Below, piece after piece: positions 1,205 to 25,552 of a DNA stretch of 64,000 nucleotides. The notes under the pieces were generated by a model that worked only from the letters and a program-made list of their open reading frames with translations, was not told the DNA's origin and ran no database searches. Each line of letters starts with the position of its first letter. Positions within the stretch are counted from its first letter, which is position 1. Source of the stretch: Dyella silvae (GTDB lineage Bacteria > Pseudomonadota > Gammaproteobacteria > Xanthomonadales > Rhodanobacteraceae). The stretch spans positions 124,001 through 188,000 of the forward strand of contig NZ_JAPJBQ010000005.1 of NCBI RefSeq assembly GCF_026421305.1, in the 5' to 3' direction. A program made the position numbers and the translations under genes.

Positions 1205-1255
1205 CTCCCTCTCCCCTTCGGGGGAGAGGGCTGGGGTGAGGGGCGGGTGCTCGCG
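1205..1255. repeat. REP-like palindromic repeat, family A, copy 1
   Basis: A short palindrome (CTCCCTCTCCCC / GGGGGAGAGGG) is followed by a tail reading GGGGTGAGGGGCGGGTGCTC. It sits 18 bases after the lysA stop. An inverted copy lies at 1621-1661, so the two bracket the DUF559 gene. Further copies are at 19377-19416 and inside hrpA (22282-22319 and 22388-22483). Confidence 0.85.
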
Positions 1256-1283: not shown

Positions 1284-1664
1284 ATGAAGCGTTTGAATGT
1301 CGATAGGGCTCGCGGCATGCGAGGTGCCCAAACGGACGCGGAACAATTGCTCTGGCATCACCTGCGCAATCGCCGCCTGCAAGGCTGGAAATTCCGGCGC
1401 CAGCACGAAATCGGTCGTTACATCGTTGATTTTGTCTGTCCGGACGCTGGCCTGATCGTGGAGCTGGACGGCGGCCAACATGGCGATCAGTTGATTTATG
1501 ACGAGCGCCGTACCGTGGAGCTGGAAGCAATGGGCTACAGGGTCCTGCGTTTCTGGAACAATGACGCATTGAAGAACGTGGAAGGCGTGCTTGAGGTGAT
1601 CCTGCAGGCTTTGGCCAGCCCGGCCCCTCACCCCAACCCTCTCCCCGAAGGGGAGAGGGAGTAG
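1284..1664 (+). CDS. DUF559 domain protein (PD-(D/E)XK / Vsr-like endonuclease fold), repeat-boxed
   Basis: A 126-residue protein of the DUF559 family, which is related to very-short-patch-repair endonucleases; the cellular function is not established. Family features are RGAQTDAEQLLWHHLRNRRLQGWKF at its start (only part cited), RRQHEIGRYIVDFVC, then LIVELDGGQH, whose D/E-x-D/E pattern looks like the nuclease core, and YRVLRFWNNDAL. The start is ATG at 1284 after AAGGAC. The last 13 residues, APHPNPLPEGERE, are encoded by the inverted family A repeat at 1621-1661, and the stop lies just past that repeat. The gene therefore occupies a cassette between two inverted repeats, wedged between lysA and murL. 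Domain identity is fairly sure; activity and mobility are inference. Confidence 0.8.
   Translation: MKRLNVDRARGMRGAQTDAEQLLWHHLRNRRLQGWKFRRQHEIGRYIVDFVCPDAGLIVELDGGQHGDQLIYDERRTVELEAMGYRVLRFWNNDALKNVEGVLEVILQALASPAPHPNPLPEGERE
1621..1661. repeat. REP-like palindromic repeat, family A, copy 2 (inverted)
   Basis: Reads CCCCTCACCCCAACCCTCTC then CCCGAAGGGGAGAGGGAG, the reverse complement of the 1205 copy with few differences. It forms the 3' end of the DUF559 reading frame and ends 22 bases before the murL start, so it also lies in the murL leader. Confidence 0.85.
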
Positions 1665-3027: not shown

Positions 3028-4394
3028 CGCAGGCGCCGCCGCTGCGCATCGCCGATCTCGACGGCAAGCGTGTTGCCGTGTGGGGTTTCGGGCGGGAAGG
3101 GCGCGCTGCCATCAAGGCCATCCGCTCACGCCTGCCGCAGCTGTCGCTCACGTTGTTCTGCAGCGATGCCGAAGTGGCATCGGCGTGCGCCTTCGATGCC
3201 ACGCTGGATGTGCGTGGACACGAGCCCGATGCGACGGCGCTGGCCGTATTCGATGTGGTGGTGAAGTCGCCGGGCATTTCCGCTTACAAACCGGCACTGC
3301 AGGCAGCACGCGAAGCGGGTGCCTGCATCACGTCAGGCACCGCATTGTGGTTCGCCGAAAACCCCGATGCCCGTGTGATCGCCGTCACCGGCACCAAGGG
3401 CAAGAGCACCACCACGGCGATGCTGGCGCATCTTGCGCGCAGTCTTGGCGTGCGTACCGCGCTGGCTGGCAATATCGGCATGCCCTTGCTGGAACTACTG
3501 GACGTATCCGCCGATCTGTGGGCCATCGAACTTTCCAGTTTTCAGACGAGCGAGGCGGGTTCGGTGGAGCTGGGTGTCATCACCAGTCTCTATGAGGAAC
3601 ACCTCGACTGGCATGGTTCGCGCGAGCGTTATATCGACGACAAGCTCAAGCTGGCCGATGTCTCAAAGCAGCTGTTGGTGAATGCCACGCAAGGGTTTCT
3701 CCTCAAACGCACTGCGCGGCATCCGCATCGCATCGTGTTCGGCCATGTCGACGGCTGGCACGTGGCGGGCGGTTCTATTCGCCGGGGCTCGCAGCCCGTG
3801 TTCGAGATTACGAATCTGCGTGCGCCGGGTGCGCACAATGCGCTCAATGCCTGTGCGGCGTTGGCGGCGCTCGAGGCGATGGGCTTCGACGCGCTGAAAG
3901 CGGCTGCAGCGCTCGCCACCTTCCGCCCTCTGCCGCATCGTTTGCAGCCGCTGGGCGAGCACGATGGCTTTCACTGGGTCAACGACTCCATCAGCACCAC
4001 GCCACTGGCGACATTGGCGGCGCTGGGTAGCCTGCAGGGCAAGGCCGTGACCGTGATCGTGGGCGGGCATGACCGCGGTCTGGATTGGAGCGAGTTTGTC
4101 TTTGCGATGAAGGCGCACGCGCCACACGCCATCGTCGCGCAAGGTGCCAACGGTCCGCGTATTGCGCGCGTGCTGCGCGAAGCGGGTGTGGTGGTGGAGG
4201 AAACGGGTGATCTTGCAGCGGCGGTCGAACGTGCCCGTGCCATCACGCCTGCCAGCGGCACCATCCTGCTGTCGCCGGGCGCTCCCAGTTTCGATCAGTT
4301 CCACGATTACGCCGATCGCGGCCGTCATTTCGCTGAGATGGCCGGCTTTGATGTGCACGAGATTGTCGGCATCGAGGGCCTGGGTATCGCCTGA
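3024..4394 (+). CDS. murD2: UDP-MurNAc-L-alanine--L-glutamate ligase MurD2
   Basis: Mur ligase that adds L-glutamate (rather than D-glutamate) to UDP-MurNAc-L-Ala using ATP, producing the substrate of the adjacent epimerase. The 456-residue protein has the Mur ligase ATP loop GTKGKSTT at about residues 123-130, the central-domain signature LYEEHLDWHGSRERYIDDK, and NDSISTTPLATLAAL before the C-terminal domain. It starts with GTG at 3024 inside the GTGA overlap with the murL stop. Sequence alone cannot separate MurD2 from MurD; the murL overlap is the deciding argument. A canonical murD would be expected, if at all, in the division/cell-wall cluster elsewhere. Confidence 0.85.
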   Translation: MTQAPPLRIADLDGKRVAVWGFGREGRAAIKAIRSRLPQLSLTLFCSDAEVASACAFDATLDVRGHEPDATALAVFDVVVKSPGISAYKPALQAAREAGACITSGTALWFAENPDARVIAVTGTKGKSTTTAMLAHLARSLGVRTALAGNIGMPLLELLDVSADLWAIELSSFQTSEAGSVELGVITSLYEEHLDWHGSRERYIDDKLKLADVSKQLLVNATQGFLLKRTARHPHRIVFGHVDGWHVAGGSIRRGSQPVFEITNLRAPGAHNALNACAALAALEAMGFDALKAAAALATFRPLPHRLQPLGEHDGFHWVNDSISTTPLATLAALGSLQGKAVTVIVGGHDRGLDWSEFVFAMKAHAPHAIVAQGANGPRIARVLREAGVVVEETGDLAAAVERARAITPASGTILLSPGAPSFDQFHDYADRGRHFAEMAGFDVHEIVGIEGLGIA

Positions 4395-18300: not shown

Positions 18301-19353
18301 ATGGCAATCGACGAACAGCGACTGCAGGCGTTTCTGGGCAAGGCCGTGGGCGACCTTGGGGCAGCCATCAGCGCGACGCTGATCGAAATCGGCGACGAGC
18401 TGGGCTTTTATCGGGCGTTGGCGGCGGAACGTCTGGACCCCGCCGGCCTTGCCAAGCGCACCGGCACCAACGAGCGCTACGTGCGTGAGTGGCTCGGCAA
18501 TCAGGCGGCTGGCGGTTATGTCGAATACGACGAGGCCAGTGGCACCTACGGATTGAGCGAGGAGCAGGCGTTGTGCCTGGCCGATCCGAATGGCCCGGTG
18601 GATCTTCCGGGCGCCTACGGCATCGTCGAGGCGATCTTCCACGCCAAAGACCGCACCCTGGAACATTTCCGCAATGGCGAGGGGATGGAGTGGGGCGAAC
18701 ACCATCCCTGTCTGTTCCGCGGTACCGAACGATTCTTCCGTGCCGGCTACAACGCCAACCTGATTGGCGCATGGTTGCCCGCGTTGGATGGGGTGGTGGA
18801 TAAGTTGCGGCACGGCGGCCGCGCGGCCGACGTCGGGTGCGGCCATGGTGCCAGCGCGATTCTCATGGCGCAGTCGTTCCCTGAGTCGGAGTTTGTGGGC
18901 TACGACTATCACGCGCCCTCGATCGACGTGGCGCGCGAGCGCGCCCGTGCGGCGGGCGTCAACAACGTGTCATTCGAGGTGGCCGATGCGGCTGGCTACC
19001 AGGGCAAGGATTTCGACCTGATCGCCTTCTTCGACTGCCTGCACGACATGGGCGACCCGGAGGGCGCCGCACGGCATGCGTGTGCGGCATTGAAGGAGGA
19101 TGGCAGTTGCATGATTGTGGAGCCGTTTGCCGGCGACAGCGTGAAAGACAATCTCAATCCGGTTGGCCGGGTGTACTACGGCGCGTCATCGCAGATCTGC
19201 GTACCGGTGTCGCTGGCGCGTCATGGGCCAGCGTTGGGGGCGCAGGCAGGGGAGGCGAGATTGCGCGAGGTTGTGGTGAAGGGTGGCGGCTTCCGCCGAT
19301 TCCGGCGGGCGGCGGAGACGCCGTTCAATATTGTGTTGGAGGCGAGGCCGTAG
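18301..19353 (+). CDS. Class I SAM-dependent methyltransferase with N-terminal winged helix
   Basis: Methylates an unknown small molecule with S-adenosylmethionine. The 350-residue protein has an N-terminal winged-helix-like segment (LAKRTGTNERYVREWLGNQ) as in Rv2258c-type methyltransferases, and the SAM loop ADVGCGHGASA at about residue 178, followed by FVGYDYHAPSID and DLIAFFDCLHDMGD. ATG at 18301 is chosen for GGAG 8 bases upstream. The product and pathway cannot be deduced; it diverges from the LuxR gene and stands alone. Confidence 0.85.
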   Translation: MAIDEQRLQAFLGKAVGDLGAAISATLIEIGDELGFYRALAAERLDPAGLAKRTGTNERYVREWLGNQAAGGYVEYDEASGTYGLSEEQALCLADPNGPVDLPGAYGIVEAIFHAKDRTLEHFRNGEGMEWGEHHPCLFRGTERFFRAGYNANLIGAWLPALDGVVDKLRHGGRAADVGCGHGASAILMAQSFPESEFVGYDYHAPSIDVARERARAAGVNNVSFEVADAAGYQGKDFDLIAFFDCLHDMGDPEGAARHACAALKEDGSCMIVEPFAGDSVKDNLNPVGRVYYGASSQICVPVSLARHGPALGAQAGEARLREVVVKGGGFRRFRRAAETPFNIVLEARP

Positions 19354-19376
19354 CGTTCAGGGGCCGCGTGCTCCTG

Positions 19377-19416
19377 CTCCCTCTCCCCTCCGGGGAGAGG
19401 GTTGGGGTGAGGGGCC
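19377..19416. repeat. REP-like palindromic repeat, family A, copy 3 (single)
   Basis: Same palindrome plus GGGGTGAGGGG tail as the copies around the DUF559 gene, but unpaired. It sits between the convergent methyltransferase and dps genes, a usual location for REP elements. Confidence 0.85.
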
Positions 19417-19512
19417 AATCTAGCGATGCGGCTAGTATTTGGGCGGATTTTTGCGAACGCCCCTGCACACCGTGCGCCCAATTCCTATTTGAAACGCCAC
19501 CCACTGCGCCAC

Positions 19513-19980
19513 TCACTTAAGCAGCGAACGCAACATCCAGGCCGTCTTCTCATGCTCCTTCAGGCGGCCAGTCACCATATCGGCCGTACCTTCATCACCA
19601 GCGGCGTCCGCCACCTTGATGACCTGCCGCGCGGTGTGTGCCGCGATCTCATGGCCTTCGACCAGCTGGCCCACCATGTCCTTCCAGTCCGGCACGCCAG
19701 CTTCTTCCTTGATCGTGGTGAGCTTGCCGAACTGGCTATACGAGCCCGGCGCAAATACATCCAGCGTACGGATACGTTCGGCCACTTCGTCGGCTGCCAG
19801 CCACAGCGCGTTGTATTGCGTCTCGAACATCGCGTGCAGGCTGTTGAAGTGCGGGCCGGTGATATTCCAGTGGAAGCTGTGCGTCTTCAGATACAGCGAA
19901 TACGTGTCCGCCAGCAGCTTGGAAAGATCCTGCCCGATCTGTTCCCGGTCCTTCTGGGTGATGCCGATGGAAATGGCCAT
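19513..19980 (-). CDS. dps: Dps family DNA-binding ferritin-like protein
   Basis: Dodecameric iron-storing protein that protects DNA from peroxide by oxidising Fe(II). The 155-residue sequence has the Dps ferroxidase signature ([18 protein letters not shown], then [19 protein letters not shown]) with the inter-subunit His, Asp and Glu ligands in place. ATG at 19980 is chosen because AGGAG lies 7 bases upstream. The leader contains an OxyR-like operator (20049-20085) just before a plausible promoter (TTCACT, 17 bases, TAAGCT on the minus strand). Confidence 0.95.
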
Positions 19981-20048
19981 AACGTGCTCCTGTGAATGTG
20001 GGCGGTGAACCATGGACCCAGCTTAGGGAGGCGGTACGCCGTAGTGAA

Positions 20049-20085
20049 ATGAATGCTTCCGATGCCGGCGATAGGTGGAAGCTAT
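20049..20085 (-). promoter_or_regulatory. OxyR-type operator upstream of dps
   Basis: ATAGGTGGAAGCTAT at 20071-20085 matches the OxyR half-operator ATAGnTnnnAnCTAT at every defined position, and its arms extend to 9 bp (CGGCGATAG/CTATCGCCG, 20066-20090). Seven bases away, 20049-20063 (ATGAATGCTTCCGAT) is a weaker second half with the correct phase. The pair ends next to the predicted -35 of dps. OxyR control of dps is well known in other proteobacteria. Confidence 0.7.
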
Positions 20086-20163
20086 CGCCGTAAGCCGCCC
20101 GCATGGGCTGTCGGGCAGCGCAGCCGCTATCATGTGCGGTCCCATGACCCAGCCCACTACTAG

Positions 20164-20428
20164 GAGCCTGTCCTCATAGTCCAACAACGCCGCGCCGGGA
20201 GCTGTTTGCCTGCGGGGCAAGGAAGAGGGAGGGAATGTATGTCGATACATGACCGAGCGATGACGCCGCCCCGTGGGCAAACAGACCCGGCCCTTCGGGT
20301 TGCCCTGCGGCGGCCGCCATGCGGCAGCCCGCGGCTTGCCCATGCCGCCAGCATGGGCTGCACCACGGTCCACCACCTGACAGCCGCCGCAGGGCAACGC
20401 GGCATTGTTGGACTATGAGGACAGGCTC
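20164..20428. mobile_element. MITE-like element with 31-bp terminal inverted repeats at the hrpA start
   Basis: The ends match as inverted repeats over 31 bases with one mismatch (20164-20194, starting GAGCCTGTCCTCATAGTCC, against 20398-20428). The 265-bp unit carries no credible gene, and its GC-rich interior has further hairpins (for example GCCCATGC/GCATGGGC). No clear target duplication is visible. Its right arm contains the ATG used for hrpA (20415). It fills most of the 434-base space between dps and hrpA. Confidence 0.75.
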
Positions 20429-23400
20429 TAAGGCCGCCCCCGCGCAGGACTCGCGGCTACGTCCGCTGCGCGAGGCGCTCGATCATGTCACCAGCCGCGA
20501 TTACGGTCGCTTGCTGGGGCGTTGGCGCGAGCTCACGCGCCGCTTCGACGACAAGAAGCTGGCGGCGCTCACTGCCGATATCGATGCGTCCAGCGCGAAA
20601 CGACGGGCTCGCGCGCAAGCCAAGCCCGCGATCACGTTGGATGAGTCGCTGCCCATCACCGCACGCGCCGATGAAATCGTCGAGCTGATCCGTAAGCATC
20701 AGGTCGTGGTGATCGCCGGCGAAACCGGTTCCGGCAAGACCACGCAGCTGCCCAAGCTGTGTCTGGCGGCTGGCCGTGGCGAGGCGGGCATGATCGGTTG
20801 TACGCAACCACGCCGGCTGGCCGCTCGCTCGGTGGCGCGGCGTGTGGCGGAGGAACTGGGTACGCAGCTCGGCGACCAGGTGGGTTTCCAGGTGCGCTTC
20901 AACGACCAGGTGTCCGAGCGCAGCCTGATCAAGTTCATGACCGACGGCATCCTGCTTGCCGAAACGCAGGGCGATCCGTGGCTGAGTGCGTACGACACGC
21001 TGATCATCGACGAGGCCCACGAGCGCAGCCTCAACATCGATTTCCTGCTGGGCTACCTCAAGCAGCTGGCGGTGAAGCGCCCGTCGCTCAAGATCATCGT
21101 CACCTCCGCCACCATCGATACGGCGCGTTTTGCCGAACACTTCGATGGTGCGCCGGTCGTGTCCGTGGAAGGCCGTACCTATCCCGTGGAAGTGCGCTGG
21201 CGCTCCGTCGATGAGGTGGCCGCGCGTCGCGGTCAACGTGCCGGCGATCTGCAGCAGGGCGGTGCCGATCATGTAGCGGCGGTGCTGGACGAGATTACCC
21301 ATGACGATCCGCGCGGCGATGTGCTGATCTTCCTGCCGGGTGAACGCGAGATCCGCGACGCGCACTTGCTGCTGTCGCGTCGTCAGTATCGCGAAACGGA
21401 AGTGCTGCCGCTGTACGCACGCCTCTCCGCCGGCGATCAGGATCGCGTATTCAAACCGGGGCCGAAGCGCCGCGTGGTGCTGGCTACCAACGTGGCCGAA
21501 ACCTCGCTCACCGTGCCGCGCATCCGCTACGTGATCGACACGGGACAGGCCCGCGTCAAACGCTACAGCCAGCGTAGTCAGCTGGAACGCCTGCATGTGG
21601 AGCCCATCTCGCGTGCCGCGGCCGATCAGCGCAAAGGCCGTTGCGGCCGTGTCGGACCCGGCACCTGCTATCGCCTGTACGACGAAGCGGATTACGAAAG
21701 CCGCGCCGCTTATACCGACCCCGAGTTGCTGCGCTCGTCGCTGGCCAATGTGATCCTGCGCATGCTGTCGCTGCAGCTGGGCGAGGTGGATCAGTTCCCG
21801 TTCCTTGAAGCGCCGGATCCGCGCGTGGTGGCGGATGGCTATCGCCGTCTGGCAGAAATTTCCGCCATTGACGATGCACGGCGACTCACGCCCATCGGCC
21901 GCACCGTGGCCAAGTTGCCAATCGATGTGCAGCTGGCGCGCATGCTGGTGGAGGCTGAGAAGCAGCACAGCTTGCGTGAGCTGCTGGCCATTGTGTCGTT
22001 CCTCAGTATCCAGGACCCGCGCGAACGTCCCGCCGACGCACGCCAGCAGGCCGATACCGCGCATGCGGCGTTTGCCGATCCGAAATCAGATTTCGTGGGC
22101 GTGCTCAATCTTTGGCGTGATTACGGCAAGGCGCATGAAGATCTGACGCAATCCAAGTTGCGCGATTGGTGCTCGCGTCATTTCCTTAGCTTTATGCGTA
22201 TGCGTGAGTGGCGCGAATTGCATCGGCAGTTGTTGCTGGTGGTGCAGGAGCTCGGGTGGAAACTGGACGCTGCCGTGACTACTCCCTCTCCCCTCCGGGG
22301 AGAGGGCCGGGGTGAGGGGTCAACCTCGCGGCAAGCTACAAAGGCAGGCGCTGTTGCCGTTCAAAAGAAGAGCGACAAGAAGCCTTTCCGCGAGCACCCA
22401 CCCCTCACCCCAACCCTCTCCTCGCTCCCCAAAGACGGGGCCATCCATGGCCCCTCTCCGCGTGCCCCGGAGGGGAGAGGGAGTAAAGACGATGAGGCCG
22501 CCAAGCAATACGAAGCCATCCACCGCAGCCTCCTCGCAGGCCTGCCCACGCAGGTAGGCCACAAAGACGAGAAGGGCATCTACCGCAGCACGCGCGAGCG
22601 TCGCTTCCAGGTGTTTCCGGGCTCGGCCTTGTCGAAGGTGCCGCCCAACTGGATCTTCGCCGCGCAGATTCTCGACGTCGGCGGACGCGTGTGGGGCATG
22701 ATGTGCGCCCGCATCGAGCCGCTGTGGATCGAACAGCAGGCGGCCCATTTGTTGCGCTCGTCGTGCCGCGATGCGCATTGGTCGCGCAAGCGTGGTCATG
22801 TGGTGGCCTACGAACAGGTCAGTCTGTTCGGCCTGACGCTGGTCGAGCGCCGCCCGGTGACCTTCCAGCAACAGGACCCGGCGCTGGCGCACGAGATCTT
22901 CCTGCGCGAAGCGCTGGCACGCTGCGATATCGATGCGCGCGCCGACTTTGTGCGCGCCAACCAGCGCGTGCTGGAAGACGCCCGGGGCATCGAGGCCAAG
23001 CAACGCCGCGAAGGTCTGCTGCGTCACGAAGAGGAGCTGGTCGGATTCTTCGAAGGCAAGCTGCCGCAAGACATCGCCGACAGCCGCGCACTGGATGCGT
23101 GGTATCGCAAGGCGCGTCCCGCCGAGCAGGCGGCGCTGCGCTGGTCGCTGGCGGATGTGATGAGCGGCGGCGCCGGGCTCGATCCCAAGGCATTTCCGGC
23201 CTCACTGGAAGTGCCACCGCAGAAATACCGCCTCGAGTACCGTTTCGTGCCTGGCGATGATGCCGATGGCGTCACGTTGCATCTGCCACTGGCCATGTTG
23301 AATGCCTTGCCCGCGGCGCGTTGCGAGTGGCTGGTGCCGGGCTTGCTGCCGGAAAAAGTAGCGGAATTGATTCGCGGTCTGCCCAAGGCACTGCGGCGCA

Positions 23401-24524
23401 ACTTCGTGCCTGCACCGGATTTTGCGCGCGCCTTTGTGGAAGCCGAAGCACCGCGTGACGAATCGCTGACCAAGGCGCTTGCCGCCTTTCTCAAGCGAGC
23501 GACCGGCGTCGACATCGCCGCGGCGGAGTTCGATGCGGTGGCGTTGCCTGCGCATTTCCGTATGCGTTACCGCCTGCACGACGAGAACGGCAAGACGCTG
23601 GCCACCGGCCGCGACCTTGCCGCCATACGCGCGCAATGGGAAGGGCAGGCGCGTGAGGCGTTCTCCCGCAAAACCGATATCGAGCTGACGCGTGAAGACA
23701 TCGCCAGCTGGGATTTCGAAGAGATTCCCGCACAGGTGCGATCCGCGGGCGGGTTGATGGCTTATCCCGCGCTGGTGGACCTGGGCGATGCCGTTGCCTT
23801 GCGGGTGTTTGAGCGCAGCGACGAAGCGCGCGAAGCCCATGTGCAGGGCGTGGTGCGCCTGTTGCGCAAAGCGATAGCCACCGATATGAAGCAGGCGCGC
23901 CGCCGCCTGCCTGTCAGTAATCCGTTGGCGCTGAAGTACGCGCCGCTCGGCGGTGTCGATGGCCTGCGCGAGGATCTGGTGGAGGGCGGTTTCAGCGATC
24001 TGCTGGAGCGTCACGCGCTGGACGTACGCACCGCCGGCGCTTTCGAAGCCTTGCACACGCAGGCATCGCGCGAATTGTTCGGCGCGGCAGTGGAACGCCT
24101 GAAACTGGCCGAGCCGATCATCGAAGCGCAGGCCGATCTCAAGCCCTGGCTGGATCCGCCGCTGATGGGTTTTGCGCGTGCCAGCTACGACGATTTGCGC
24201 GAACAACTCGACGCGATGTTCACGCCGGCTTTCCTGCGCGAACTGCCTACCTCACGCCTGCAGCACTATCCGCGCTATCTGAAAGCCATGCGGCTACGCG
24301 CGGAGCGGTTGCGACAGGACCCGGCCAAGGATCAGCAGCGTCTGCTGCAGGTGCTGCCGTTCTGGCGCGAATACCTCAAGCATCGCGCCGCAGGTACTGA
24401 AGGGCTGGACGAACTGCGCTGGCTGATCGAGGAATGGCGCGTGTCGCTGTTCGCGCAGGAGTTGAAGACGGCCGAGCCGGTGTCGGCGAAGCGTCTCACG
24501 CGCGCACTTGAAAATCTTACCTGA
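20415..24524 (+). CDS. hrpA: ATP-dependent RNA helicase HrpA (DEAH box)
   Basis: A DEAH-box RNA helicase; in E. coli HrpA helps rescue stalled or collided ribosomes. The sequence shows GETGSGKTT (102-110), DEAH (199-202), SAT in TSATIDTARF, and QRKGRCGR (motif VI). The HA2/OB region and the long C-terminal DUF3418 domain follow (about 750-1360), ending in RWLIEEWRVSLFAQEL. ATG at 20415 gives 1369 residues; it lies inside the right arm of a MITE-like element, and more upstream in-frame codons (to 20319) read as element sequence. Compared with E. coli HrpA there is an extra 70-80 residues at about 620-695, made largely of family A repeats, without breaking the frame. The native start may have been altered by the element. 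Confidence 0.9.
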   Translation: MRTGSKAAPAQDSRLRPLREALDHVTSRDYGRLLGRWRELTRRFDDKKLAALTADIDASSAKRRARAQAKPAITLDESLPITARADEIVELIRKHQVVVIAGETGSGKTTQLPKLCLAAGRGEAGMIGCTQPRRLAARSVARRVAEELGTQLGDQVGFQVRFNDQVSERSLIKFMTDGILLAETQGDPWLSAYDTLIIDEAHERSLNIDFLLGYLKQLAVKRPSLKIIVTSATIDTARFAEHFDGAPVVSVEGRTYPVEVRWRSVDEVAARRGQRAGDLQQGGADHVAAVLDEITHDDPRGDVLIFLPGEREIRDAHLLLSRRQYRETEVLPLYARLSAGDQDRVFKPGPKRRVVLATNVAETSLTVPRIRYVIDTGQARVKRYSQRSQLERLHVEPISRAAADQRKGRCGRVGPGTCYRLYDEADYESRAAYTDPELLRSSLANVILRMLSLQLGEVDQFPFLEAPDPRVVADGYRRLAEISAIDDARRLTPIGRTVAKLPIDVQLARMLVEAEKQHSLRELLAIVSFLSIQDPRERPADARQQADTAHAAFADPKSDFVGVLNLWRDYGKAHEDLTQSKLRDWCSRHFLSFMRMREWRELHRQLLLVVQELGWKLDAAVTTPSPLRGEGRGEGSTSRQATKAGAVAVQKKSDKKPFREHPPLTPTLSSLPKDGAIHGPSPRAPEGRGSKDDEAAKQYEAIHRSLLAGLPTQVGHKDEKGIYRSTRERRFQVFPGSALSKVPPNWIFAAQILDVGGRVWGMMCARIEPLWIEQQAAHLLRSSCRDAHWSRKRGHVVAYEQVSLFGLTLVERRPVTFQQQDPALAHEIFLREALARCDIDARADFVRANQRVLEDARGIEAKQRREGLLRHEEELVGFFEGKLPQDIADSRALDAWYRKARPAEQAALRWSLADVMSGGAGLDPKAFPASLEVPPQKYRLEYRFVPGDDADGVTLHLPLAMLNALPAARCEWLVPGLLPEKVAELIRGLPKALRRNFVPAPDFARAFVEAEAPRDESLTKALAAFLKRATGVDIAAAEFDAVALPAHFRMRYRLHDENGKTLATGRDLAAIRAQWEGQAREAFSRKTDIELTREDIASWDFEEIPAQVRSAGGLMAYPALVDLGDAVALRVFERSDEAREAHVQGVVRLLRKAIATDMKQARRRLPVSNPLALKYAPLGGVDGLREDLVEGGFSDLLERHALDVRTAGAFEALHTQASRELFGAAVERLKLAEPIIEAQADLKPWLDPPLMGFARASYDDLREQLDAMFTPAFLRELPTSRLQHYPRYLKAMRLRAERLRQDPAKDQQRLLQVLPFWREYLKHRAAGTEGLDELRWLIEEWRVSLFAQELKTAEPVSAKRLTRALENLT
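22282..22483. repeat. Inverted pair of family A repeats inserted in frame in hrpA
   Basis: Copy 4 (22282-22319) and copy 5 (22388-22483, inverted) face each other across 68 bases, the same arrangement that brackets the DUF559 gene near 1.2-1.7 kb. Copy 5 is split by 47 extra bases (22422-22468). All are translated within hrpA, giving peptides such as TPSPLRGEGRGEG and HPPLTPTLS. Copy 5 shares the longer tail CGAGCACCC with copy 1. Confidence 0.85.
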
Positions 24525-24567
24525 GCGGCTGTCCAACCCCTCGCGTTGCTCCAACGCATACAAGCGC

Positions 24568-24653
24568 GTCATCCCCGCGAAAGCGGGGATCCAGTGACTG
24601 TCGGTTGCCCTCCGCGATGAAAGGCGCTGGATCCCCGCTTTCGCGGGGATGAC
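24568..24653. repeat. REP-like inverted pair, family B, copy 1
   Basis: GTCATCCCCGCGAAAGCGGG (24568 onward, continuing GATCCAG) and its inverted partner (24627-24653) flank a short spacer. Each half is itself a hairpin. The whole unit, spacer included, resembles 30441-30564, so it is a bipartite REP-type element. It lies between the convergent hrpA and the secreted protein gene. Confidence 0.85.
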
Positions 24654-24716
24654 GGTGAGGGAATAACGACGTTATGCGGGGTTTTTGAAAAGTCTCTGAG
24701 TGAGAGCATTTTCAGC

Positions 24717-25264: not shown

Positions 25265-25552
25265 AGGGCAACACTGATCAAGTATCGCCGTCGTCACCGT
25301 CCCTGTCTGCCTGCAGATCATAGGGGCGTCGGCGAAGGCAGACTGGCCGTCTGTCGAGTCGACGCCCCGAAGAGATGCGGGCAGACAGGGACGGCCCCAC
25401 CTATAAATTTCAATGAAAGGGGTGATGCCTGGAAGGCCCACAGACAGAGGCGCGCGGCTTGGCAAGACGGCCAGTCTTCCCTGCGCCGCGCGCCTCTGTC
25501 TGTGGGCCTTCCAGGCATCATGACGACGGCGATACTTGATCAGTGTTGCCCT
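25265..25552. mobile_element. Nested palindromic, MITE-like element upstream of relA
   Basis: A 288-bp unit with perfect 32-bp terminal inverted repeats (25265-25296, beginning AGGGCAACACTGATCAAG, and 25521-25552). Inside are a 15-bp pair (25297-25311 with 25380-25394), a 9-bp pair (25323-25331 with 25360-25368), and a perfect 36-bp pair (25423-25458 with 25485-25520, 26-base loop). The inner arms abut the outer ones. There is no coding capacity and no clear target duplication. It fills most of the 393 bases between the secreted protein gene and relA, ending 71 bases before the relA start. Confidence 0.8.

Follow-up and report, generated by a model that had tools for sequence, protein, structure and literature searches.

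The intrastrand-triplex motif (TM), also called Box C or PIT (potential intrastrand triplex), has been found in more than 260 genomes, with 23 copies in Escherichia coli K-12, and triplex formation by the E. coli motif was demonstrated in vitro by others; in the accessible part of the source (PMC4666352) the K-12 copies are described as always intergenic and never near mobility genes. Enterobacter sp. 638 carries 100 palindromes of the Box C kind, according to the available excerpt of PMC2869309. A second group comprises the repetitive extragenic palindromic sequences (REPs), their inverted doublets (REPINs, REP doublets forming hairpins) and the REP-associated tyrosine transposases (RAYTs). 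REPs of families other than the one treated here were reported inside genes, often as dimers and many of them in repair genes and helicases (available part of PMC3733652). Here we describe a pair of repeats within hrpA, the gene for the ATP-dependent RNA helicase HrpA, of Dyella silvae, in a window of 64,000 nucleotides (nt; the whole stretch of DNA that was analysed) from a draft genome of 4.45 Mb (99.98% complete). By its base pattern the hrpA repeat is the published Box C/PIT/TM motif, and the substitutions among relatives indicate that the DNA structure of the insert, not its peptide, is conserved in most species examined. Other copies in the window bracket a gene of the DUF559 family.

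The open reading frame (ORF) of hrpA (20319..24524, plus strand; TIGR01967) was identified from the ORF list, by homology and by profile match. As an earlier note on this DNA had described, it contains two copies of the repeat in opposite orientation, with core matches at 22298 on the plus and 22401 on the minus strand, and the frame runs on through the insert. The latter (22282-22483) is made up of two REP-like repeats in inverted orientation, separated by a spacer of 69 nt. Alignment with E. coli HrpA (PDB 9gft) pairs residues 49-649 and 729-1400 with E. coli residues 37-638 and 643-1324, leaving a linker of 79 residues (650-728) versus 4 in the E. coli protein (between 638 and 643), which bears out the figure of about 75 extra residues given in the note. 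The HA2 domain match extends up to residue 592 and the OB_NTP_bind match starts at 734; alignment and domain matches thus place the extra segment as an interdomain linker from HA2 to the OB-fold.

The left arm (22282..22319, plus strand) consists of a pyrimidine stem, a purine stem and a purine tail, with an inner tail of the CAAYCTNGC type, read as PSPLRGEGRGEG. It is followed by the spacer (22320..22388, plus strand) and by the right arm (22389..22483, minus strand), an inverted copy with an inner tail of the GGGTGCTCGCG type, over which hrpA reads REHPPLTPTLS...PEGRGS. The right copy is not intact, as its stem is split by a 45-nt piece (22422..22466, 15 codons, no strand assigned) that contains a palindrome of its own and keeps the frame; among the loci compared, the 21-nt core of this piece was found in two genomes only, the present one (G000) and G007. 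The outer arms (22280-22300 and 22465-22485) are 100% complementary. With up to 3 mismatches the repeat core occurs 5 times in the window versus 0 times in 100 shuffles, and with up to 2 mismatches there are 152 copies in the genome, while the reversed control pattern yielded none. Aligned on the core, 34 distinct copies of this genome share the constant unit CTCCCTCTCCCC-loop-GGGGAGAGGG-YY-GGGGTGAGGGG. The inner tail that follows is mostly one of two, YCAATCTTGCG-like or YGGGTGCTCGCG-like, and in the hrpA pair the left copy carries the first kind and the right copy the second, a combination also present in another doublet of the genome (L059).

The unit compares closely with the E. coli motif TM_ECO, for which the accessible text of PMC4666352 gives a CCCTCTCCC stem, a loop, GGGAGAGGG, two variable bases and a GGGGTGAGGG third strand, together with numerous genome copies and some inverted pairs. 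The Box C order of pyrimidine stem, purine stem and purine third strand within 34-37 nt was found in the hrpA left arms of 16 genomes. Unlike what that text reports for TM_ECO, one pair here lies in frame in hrpA and another in uvrD, and DUF559 genes are flanked by copies. With REPINs and RAYTs, as set out in the available part of PMC2817692, the family shares palindromic units in inverted doublets (in hrpA two inverted units around a short spacer), a gene enclosed by two inverted units, and several gene types that each have their own unit type. It differs from them in several respects: the consensus of the 34 copies lacks the GTAG or CGTC end tag, no Y1 transposase was detected in this genome, a third strand covaries with the stem, and the enclosed nuclease gene belongs to another superfamily. 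In-frame palindromes in genes, including UvrD/Rep helicase and RNA helicases, are likewise known from the intragenic REPs and Rickettsia palindromic elements (RPEs) treated in the consulted part of PMC3733652. Those elements belong to the GTAG or CGTC families or are RPEs, whereas the hrpA family is of the triplex type, and in contrast to the cases in that part of the source, the analysis here quantified how the insert is distributed, how neutrally its spacer drifts and how its structure is conserved.

For comparison, the linker was taken from 50 hrpA loci in 48 genomes. It is in frame in 48 of the loci, the exceptions being G023 and G001; the G001 linker (L061) contains Ns and reads out of frame, probably owing to an assembly gap at the repeat. 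Arms were scored in 46 genomes (G001 and G013 were skipped for Ns in the linker). Relative to shuffled sequence they reached a z of about 3 or higher in 21, namely 16 of the 18 genus members scored and five members of other genera. Outside the family, none of the 11 genomes scored reached a z of 1.3 for the repeat arms, and in 5 of these 11 the linker measures only 48-57 nt. The earlier note had expected the insert to be recent, a dating that does not agree with its presence across most of the genus and in five other genera; that it is variable, as also proposed, holds, since spacer, decay and length (165-282 nt including the flanking anchors, in genus members without Ns) differ among genus members. 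Decay has affected the arms of G019 and G017, G012 lacks the right arm, and a different repeat variant was found in the linkers of G004, G018 and G036. As read by eye, another repeat kind appears to occupy the same linker in G021 (and, from the peptide, in G035), and G002 has a shorter hrpA frame downstream of it (968 codons). An assembly error, which the earlier note had raised as a reason for doubt, is very unlikely because in-frame inserts of the same kind are present in many independent genomes, among them the single-contig genomes G002, G007 and G009. On a HrpA tree built without the linker, the recognisable insert requires 5 changes. A single old insertion followed by decay appears to be the simplest reading of this distribution; these 5 changes also make repeated insertion or loss possible, which speaks against it.

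Which part of the insert has been conserved was assessed in 13 of the 18 scored genus members (78 pairs), with G004, G012, G017, G018 and G019 omitted for decayed or other-variant arms. In the codon alignment the arms have a mean identity of 0.874 and 0.906, compared with 0.593 for the spacer and 0.624 for the 4-fold degenerate sites of the hrpA flanks; both arms exceed the 4-fold sites in 78/78 pairs, the spacer in 25/78. Without realignment the 4-fold identity is 0.619 and the spacer lies above it in 27/78 pairs. Judged from these identities, the spacer changes in a neutral-like manner, roughly as fast as the 4-fold sites, and the arms are held in most lineages, not in all. Counted over all 18 genus members the case is weaker, with a mean arm identity of just 0.737 and 0.742 and with the arms above the 4-fold sites in 100 and 94 of 153 pairs. 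Across the clade with the insert, the arm score rises with the copy number of the genome (rho 0.54, p 0.008, n=23, without correction for phylogeny), in keeping with some exchange between copies; within the genus this correlation is not significant (rho 0.42, p 0.08, n=18), which counts against the account favoured below. If the insert were a useful new protein segment selected as a peptide, the maintenance of the frame in all but two loci and the similar in-frame doublet in uvrD would be expected. The neutral-like drift of the spacer and the linker lengths of 48 nt to over 280 nt among relatives fit such selection poorly, and we regard it as very improbable.

Stem covariation and base triads were counted in left arms without gaps from 16 genomes (G007, G028, G036 and the decayed arms were omitted). 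In 500 shuffles, the hairpin covariation score of the left stem was reached once. If the tail is placed antiparallel as the third strand, one register gives 146 canonical triads out of 160 (91%; C.G*G, T.A*A or T.A*T), and six other registers give 41-61%. A full switch of the triad from C.G*G to T.A*A was found in five genomes; a sixth, G015, has the T and the A combined with C in its purine strand, and in G024 the pair is broken. On the HrpA tree, at least three changes of stem state are required. From a reading of the sequences, two of the three changes of such a switch are synonymous and the third replaces Gly by Asp, and since the triple change makes sense as a base triad, the peptide fails to explain the stem pattern. 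Copies elsewhere behave alike: in seven genomes the third-strand A accompanies 93/93 CCTTCTCCC stems and 4/150 CCCTCTCCC stems among those listed (292 counted). Two of the five covariation measures gave ordinary values and weigh on the other side, with changes on both sides of a pair (2 pairs) equalled in 62/500 shuffles and further pair types in 493/500.

It could be argued that the arms persist because their structure in DNA or mRNA serves hrpA itself, through translation pausing, co-translational folding of the two protein halves or mRNA stability, and both the excess of arm identity in every one of the 78 pairs of the 13 members and the structural covariation would suit this explanation. 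Such a function is hard to reconcile with the decay in G019 and G017, the loss of the right arm in G012 and the other variant in G004, G018 and G036, or with a repeat that is unrecognisable in most other relatives; moreover, three-strand covariation is also seen in the copies elsewhere, which makes it a property of the family and not of hrpA. We therefore consider a service to hrpA unlikely. Exchange with other copies is a further way to keep arms alike. The T-variant stem as such is common (63 copies in G010, 37 in G014). The triple variant together with a CAAYCTNGC-type tail was found only in hrpA, in G014 and G016, a point against exchange as the source of the arms and the reason why a change in situ fits better than simple gene conversion. 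Gene conversion between copies with the same tail was rejected as the sole cause of arm conservation, this combination being rare outside hrpA; partial gene conversion of the arms is possible.

An open frame through the repeat is easily obtained. For each of the eight variants tried, a single unit is free of stops in 5 of 6 frames, so that staying open needs no special explanation, and the whole hrpA insert is open in 2 of the 3 forward frames. A second in-frame Box C doublet was found in uvrD of the same genome (L037, nt 2-2353; G000:C2, about 19,300-20,300; PRK11773 above its cut-off). G000, G008 and G013 have the uvrD doublet in frame, G018 has it in a decayed state and G024 has one of another repeat type, and the site is empty in 16 of 20 genus genomes; a different repeat kind was observed at the site in G021. 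Comparison with empty sites gave no clear target duplication at the uvrD insertion point. Overlap with coding sequence was examined for 34 distinct copies, representing 30 loci out of the 152 copies plus the window. Six of the 34 lie under a long coding-like frame, and the copies of hrpA and uvrD are the two clearly within a gene, the other four being located at gene ends or in run-on frames. The suggestion of the earlier note that repeats open in the coding direction are a route to new protein segments can thus be kept in part: in-frame entry does lengthen proteins, as in hrpA and uvrD, whereas the idea that the segment is favoured as such finds no backing, openness being cheap and the conserved pattern being that of the DNA.

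The second gene of interest in the window, at 1284..1664 on the plus strand, was recognised by a profile match to DUF559 (PF04480, Vsr-like) and is a candidate partner nuclease of the repeats. One Box C copy lies 5' of it (1207..1243, plus strand) and an inverted copy covers its 3' end (1624..1659, minus strand), the C-terminal residues (about SPAPHPNPLPEGERE) being encoded by this downstream copy. A further, lone copy is located between this cassette and hrpA (19379..19414, plus strand). The DUF559 profile matches an endonuclease-like structure (PDB 3hrl) with E 8.5e-40 and weakly a mobile intron protein (3r3p, E 8e-4); the nearest NCBIfam model, PRK09767, stays under its curated cut-off, PADLOC returned weak partial matches only, and the structure model has a mean pLDDT of 84. 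From these matches the protein is predicted to be a Vsr-like PD-(D/E)XK nuclease, and by its PF04480 match the gene is a member of the DUF559/YcjD/VsrA family covered in the available parts of PMC12907096 and PMC1189080. For this family a putative role in very-short-patch repair has been proposed, and the Caulobacter member VsrA is described as Vsr-like and linked to the SOS response (PMC12907096, in the part consulted). The cassette copies are 402 nt apart, one end having the GGGTGCTCGCG tail and the other a tail of its own. The earlier note saw in the hrpA pair the spacing of such a cassette with its cargo deleted; the comparison does not bear this out, because the hrpA copies are 103 nt apart, like five other doublets among the copies listed (84-115 nt), and the left inner tail matches neither cassette end. 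Sixteen pairs among 100 copies listed enclose longer pieces of 0.8-1.1 kb; the six that were read (L031, L034, L038, L040, L053 and L057) contain nested palindromic repeats without a recognisable gene and constitute a composite element.

The link between DUF559 genes and flanking repeats extends well beyond this window. A strong flanking inverted repeat was found at 20 of 30 DUF559 loci from this genome and its relatives, versus 4 of 640 control windows. Repeat types were assigned for the 51 loci with E <1e-25 among 67 DUF559 matches listed; by a threshold without a control of its own, 40 have a recognised repeat at both flanks, 9 at a single flank (a contig end truncates one of these loci) and 2 at neither. 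Mapped on a DUF559 tree of 50 loci (one identical row was dropped, and two loci of mixed D/C label were treated as C), repeat type changes 7 times versus 22.9 times when shuffled, and none of 200 shuffles came as low, a clustering to which near-copies contribute. Several genomes hold more than one DUF559 gene, each with its own repeat type (A, B and C in G008; A, C and D in G013; A, B and D in G036), and in G004 hrpA arms that resemble type B go together with a type-B DUF559 gene. Of the 16 genus members with a type-A gene, 13 have it at a distance of 16.5-20.5 kb from hrpA, as a resident gene would be; it is distant from hrpA in G009 and on another contig in G005 and G014. For more remote taxa, the nearest 80 loci out of at least 579 relatives were taken from one-per-species genomes and hence represent a subgroup. 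An inverted repeat within 250 nt surrounds DUF559 in 62 of the 80, compared with 2 of 296 shifted windows, and the flanked loci include, to go by the titles of their records, Alpha-, Beta- and Gammaproteobacteria, Desulfobacterales, Nitrospiria and Candidatus Kuenenia, with many metagenome bins among them. Several points detract from this picture: 18 of the 80 loci fall below the threshold, the 80 are the nearest part of the family and not a sample of it, flanks paired across different loci pass in 68 of 400 cases (because the repeats resemble each other across taxa), and G032 and G056 carry DUF559 genes without recognisable repeats. The association of DUF559 with Box C is nonetheless strong as an architecture with matching types. 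In the literature searched, with most subscription journals outside its scope, no publication was found that links the DUF559 family to palindromic repeats.

The DUF559 gene of E. coli K-12, ycjD (L249, 3408-3761), likewise has a Box C copy (3206-3240) at a distance of 167 nt from its 3' end; this end is also overlapped by a degenerate copy that was recognised by eye. The gene is present in 3365 of 5426 E. coli genomes. From a comparison of eight loci and from the accessible part of PMC12817139, ycjD and its Box C in K-12 (L249, 3040-3840, in the order fabI-ycjD-sapF) occupy the position of the eef efflux operon of other E. coli lineages, possibly a replacement linked to the repeat.

Copy number was compared in 61 genomes. 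At least 10 copies are present in 19 of 20 genomes with a type-A DUF559 gene versus 6 of 41 without (Mann-Whitney P 1.9e-8 on the counts, not corrected for phylogeny). Several results argue against a simple dependence: DUF559-A presence is unrelated to copy number within the genus (P 0.67), the phylogenetically independent pairs are too few to decide (1.5 in the same direction, 0.0 in the other, median p 0.5), no full DUF559 gene was found in G002 (93 copies) or G019 (26 copies), and G004 with its 77 type-A copies has full-length DUF559 genes of other types only. The same comparison bears on the view that the element is an ordinary REPIN mobilised by a RAYT, with the Y1 transposase since lost here and DUF559 a mere passenger between the repeats. 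The doublet of two inverted units is the REPIN architecture of PMC2817692, as far as its available part describes it, and matches to Y1_Tnp occur in 11 of 20 genus genomes. Copy number is unrelated to Y1_Tnp (at least 10 copies in 16 of 40 genomes with and 9 of 21 without it, P 0.84), and searches with PF01797 (E 0.001; the E. coli control was positive) gave no match in the present genome and none in eight more genomes with at least 10 copies (G002, G003, G010, G012, G013, G014, G016 and G026). The missing GTAG and CGTC ends of the unit also speak against a RAYT, and a gene that is only a passenger should not turn up in several phyla between matching repeats whose type agrees with its own. As the present mobiliser a RAYT was rejected on the lack of a match in this genome and the missing relation to copy number, and the REPIN view as a whole is improbable to our mind.

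We favour an account in which a nuclease takes the place of the transposase. The HrpA linker would have received a copied Box C doublet in an ancestor that the genus probably shares with several others of the family; the doublet would have stayed as the linker tolerates changes in length and the frame was kept. The spacer would then have drifted neutrally, while the arms would have been retained in most lineages as triplex motifs, by structural constraint, by exchange with other genome copies or by both, and would have decayed in some lineages, several of which have few copies. The DUF559 nuclease, its gene bracketed by matching copies, is the best candidate and may spread or maintain the elements in place of a RAYT; it is suggested that it cuts or nicks at the hairpin or triplex and that copying repair follows, in a homing-like manner. 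Insertion of doublets into helicase linkers, as in hrpA and uvrD, may be one outcome of such a DUF559 system. The single old insertion, the action of the nuclease, the mode of copying and a peptide without benefit are what we infer here, and taken as a whole, with an ancient entry into the linker, arms kept as DNA and DUF559 spreading or maintaining the elements, we judge the account to be probable. The broader proposal that DUF559 (YcjD/VsrA-like) proteins are the missing mobility or maintenance enzymes of Box C repeats across bacteria, making these a second REP class, free of a transposase, in which a Vsr-type nuclease and a triplex replace RAYT and hairpin, may in our estimate turn out right or wrong with equal ease.

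Other repeats surround hrpA. Two elements (20164-20428 and 25265-25552) have terminal inverted repeats of 31-41 nt, about 205 nt apart, with further inverted repeats nested within them. The first overlaps the initial codons of the long hrpA ORF, which makes the start of this ORF doubtful; homology to the E. coli protein begins at about residue 49, and the true start is probably further in than 20319. Just 3' of hrpA, at 24567-24654, there is a palindrome pair of the CGTC type (CGTCATCCCCGCGAAAGCGGGGATCC); CGTC REPs are said to have no dedicated transposase in the part of PMC3733652 at hand.

That repeats enter genes in frame has already been published for other REP families, as the consulted part of PMC3733652 documents. 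The present hrpA locus would add an old repeat insertion in a coding sequence in which the DNA structure rather than the peptide appears conserved in most species examined. As to what moves the Box C copies of E. coli, nothing suitable was seen near them according to the accessible text of PMC4666352; with one nuclease family situated between matching copies in several phyla and beside Box C in E. coli K-12, the question of their mobility becomes testable in a laboratory strain. If the account is true, DUF559, for which we otherwise found only a putative role in mismatch repair, would gain a defined substrate.

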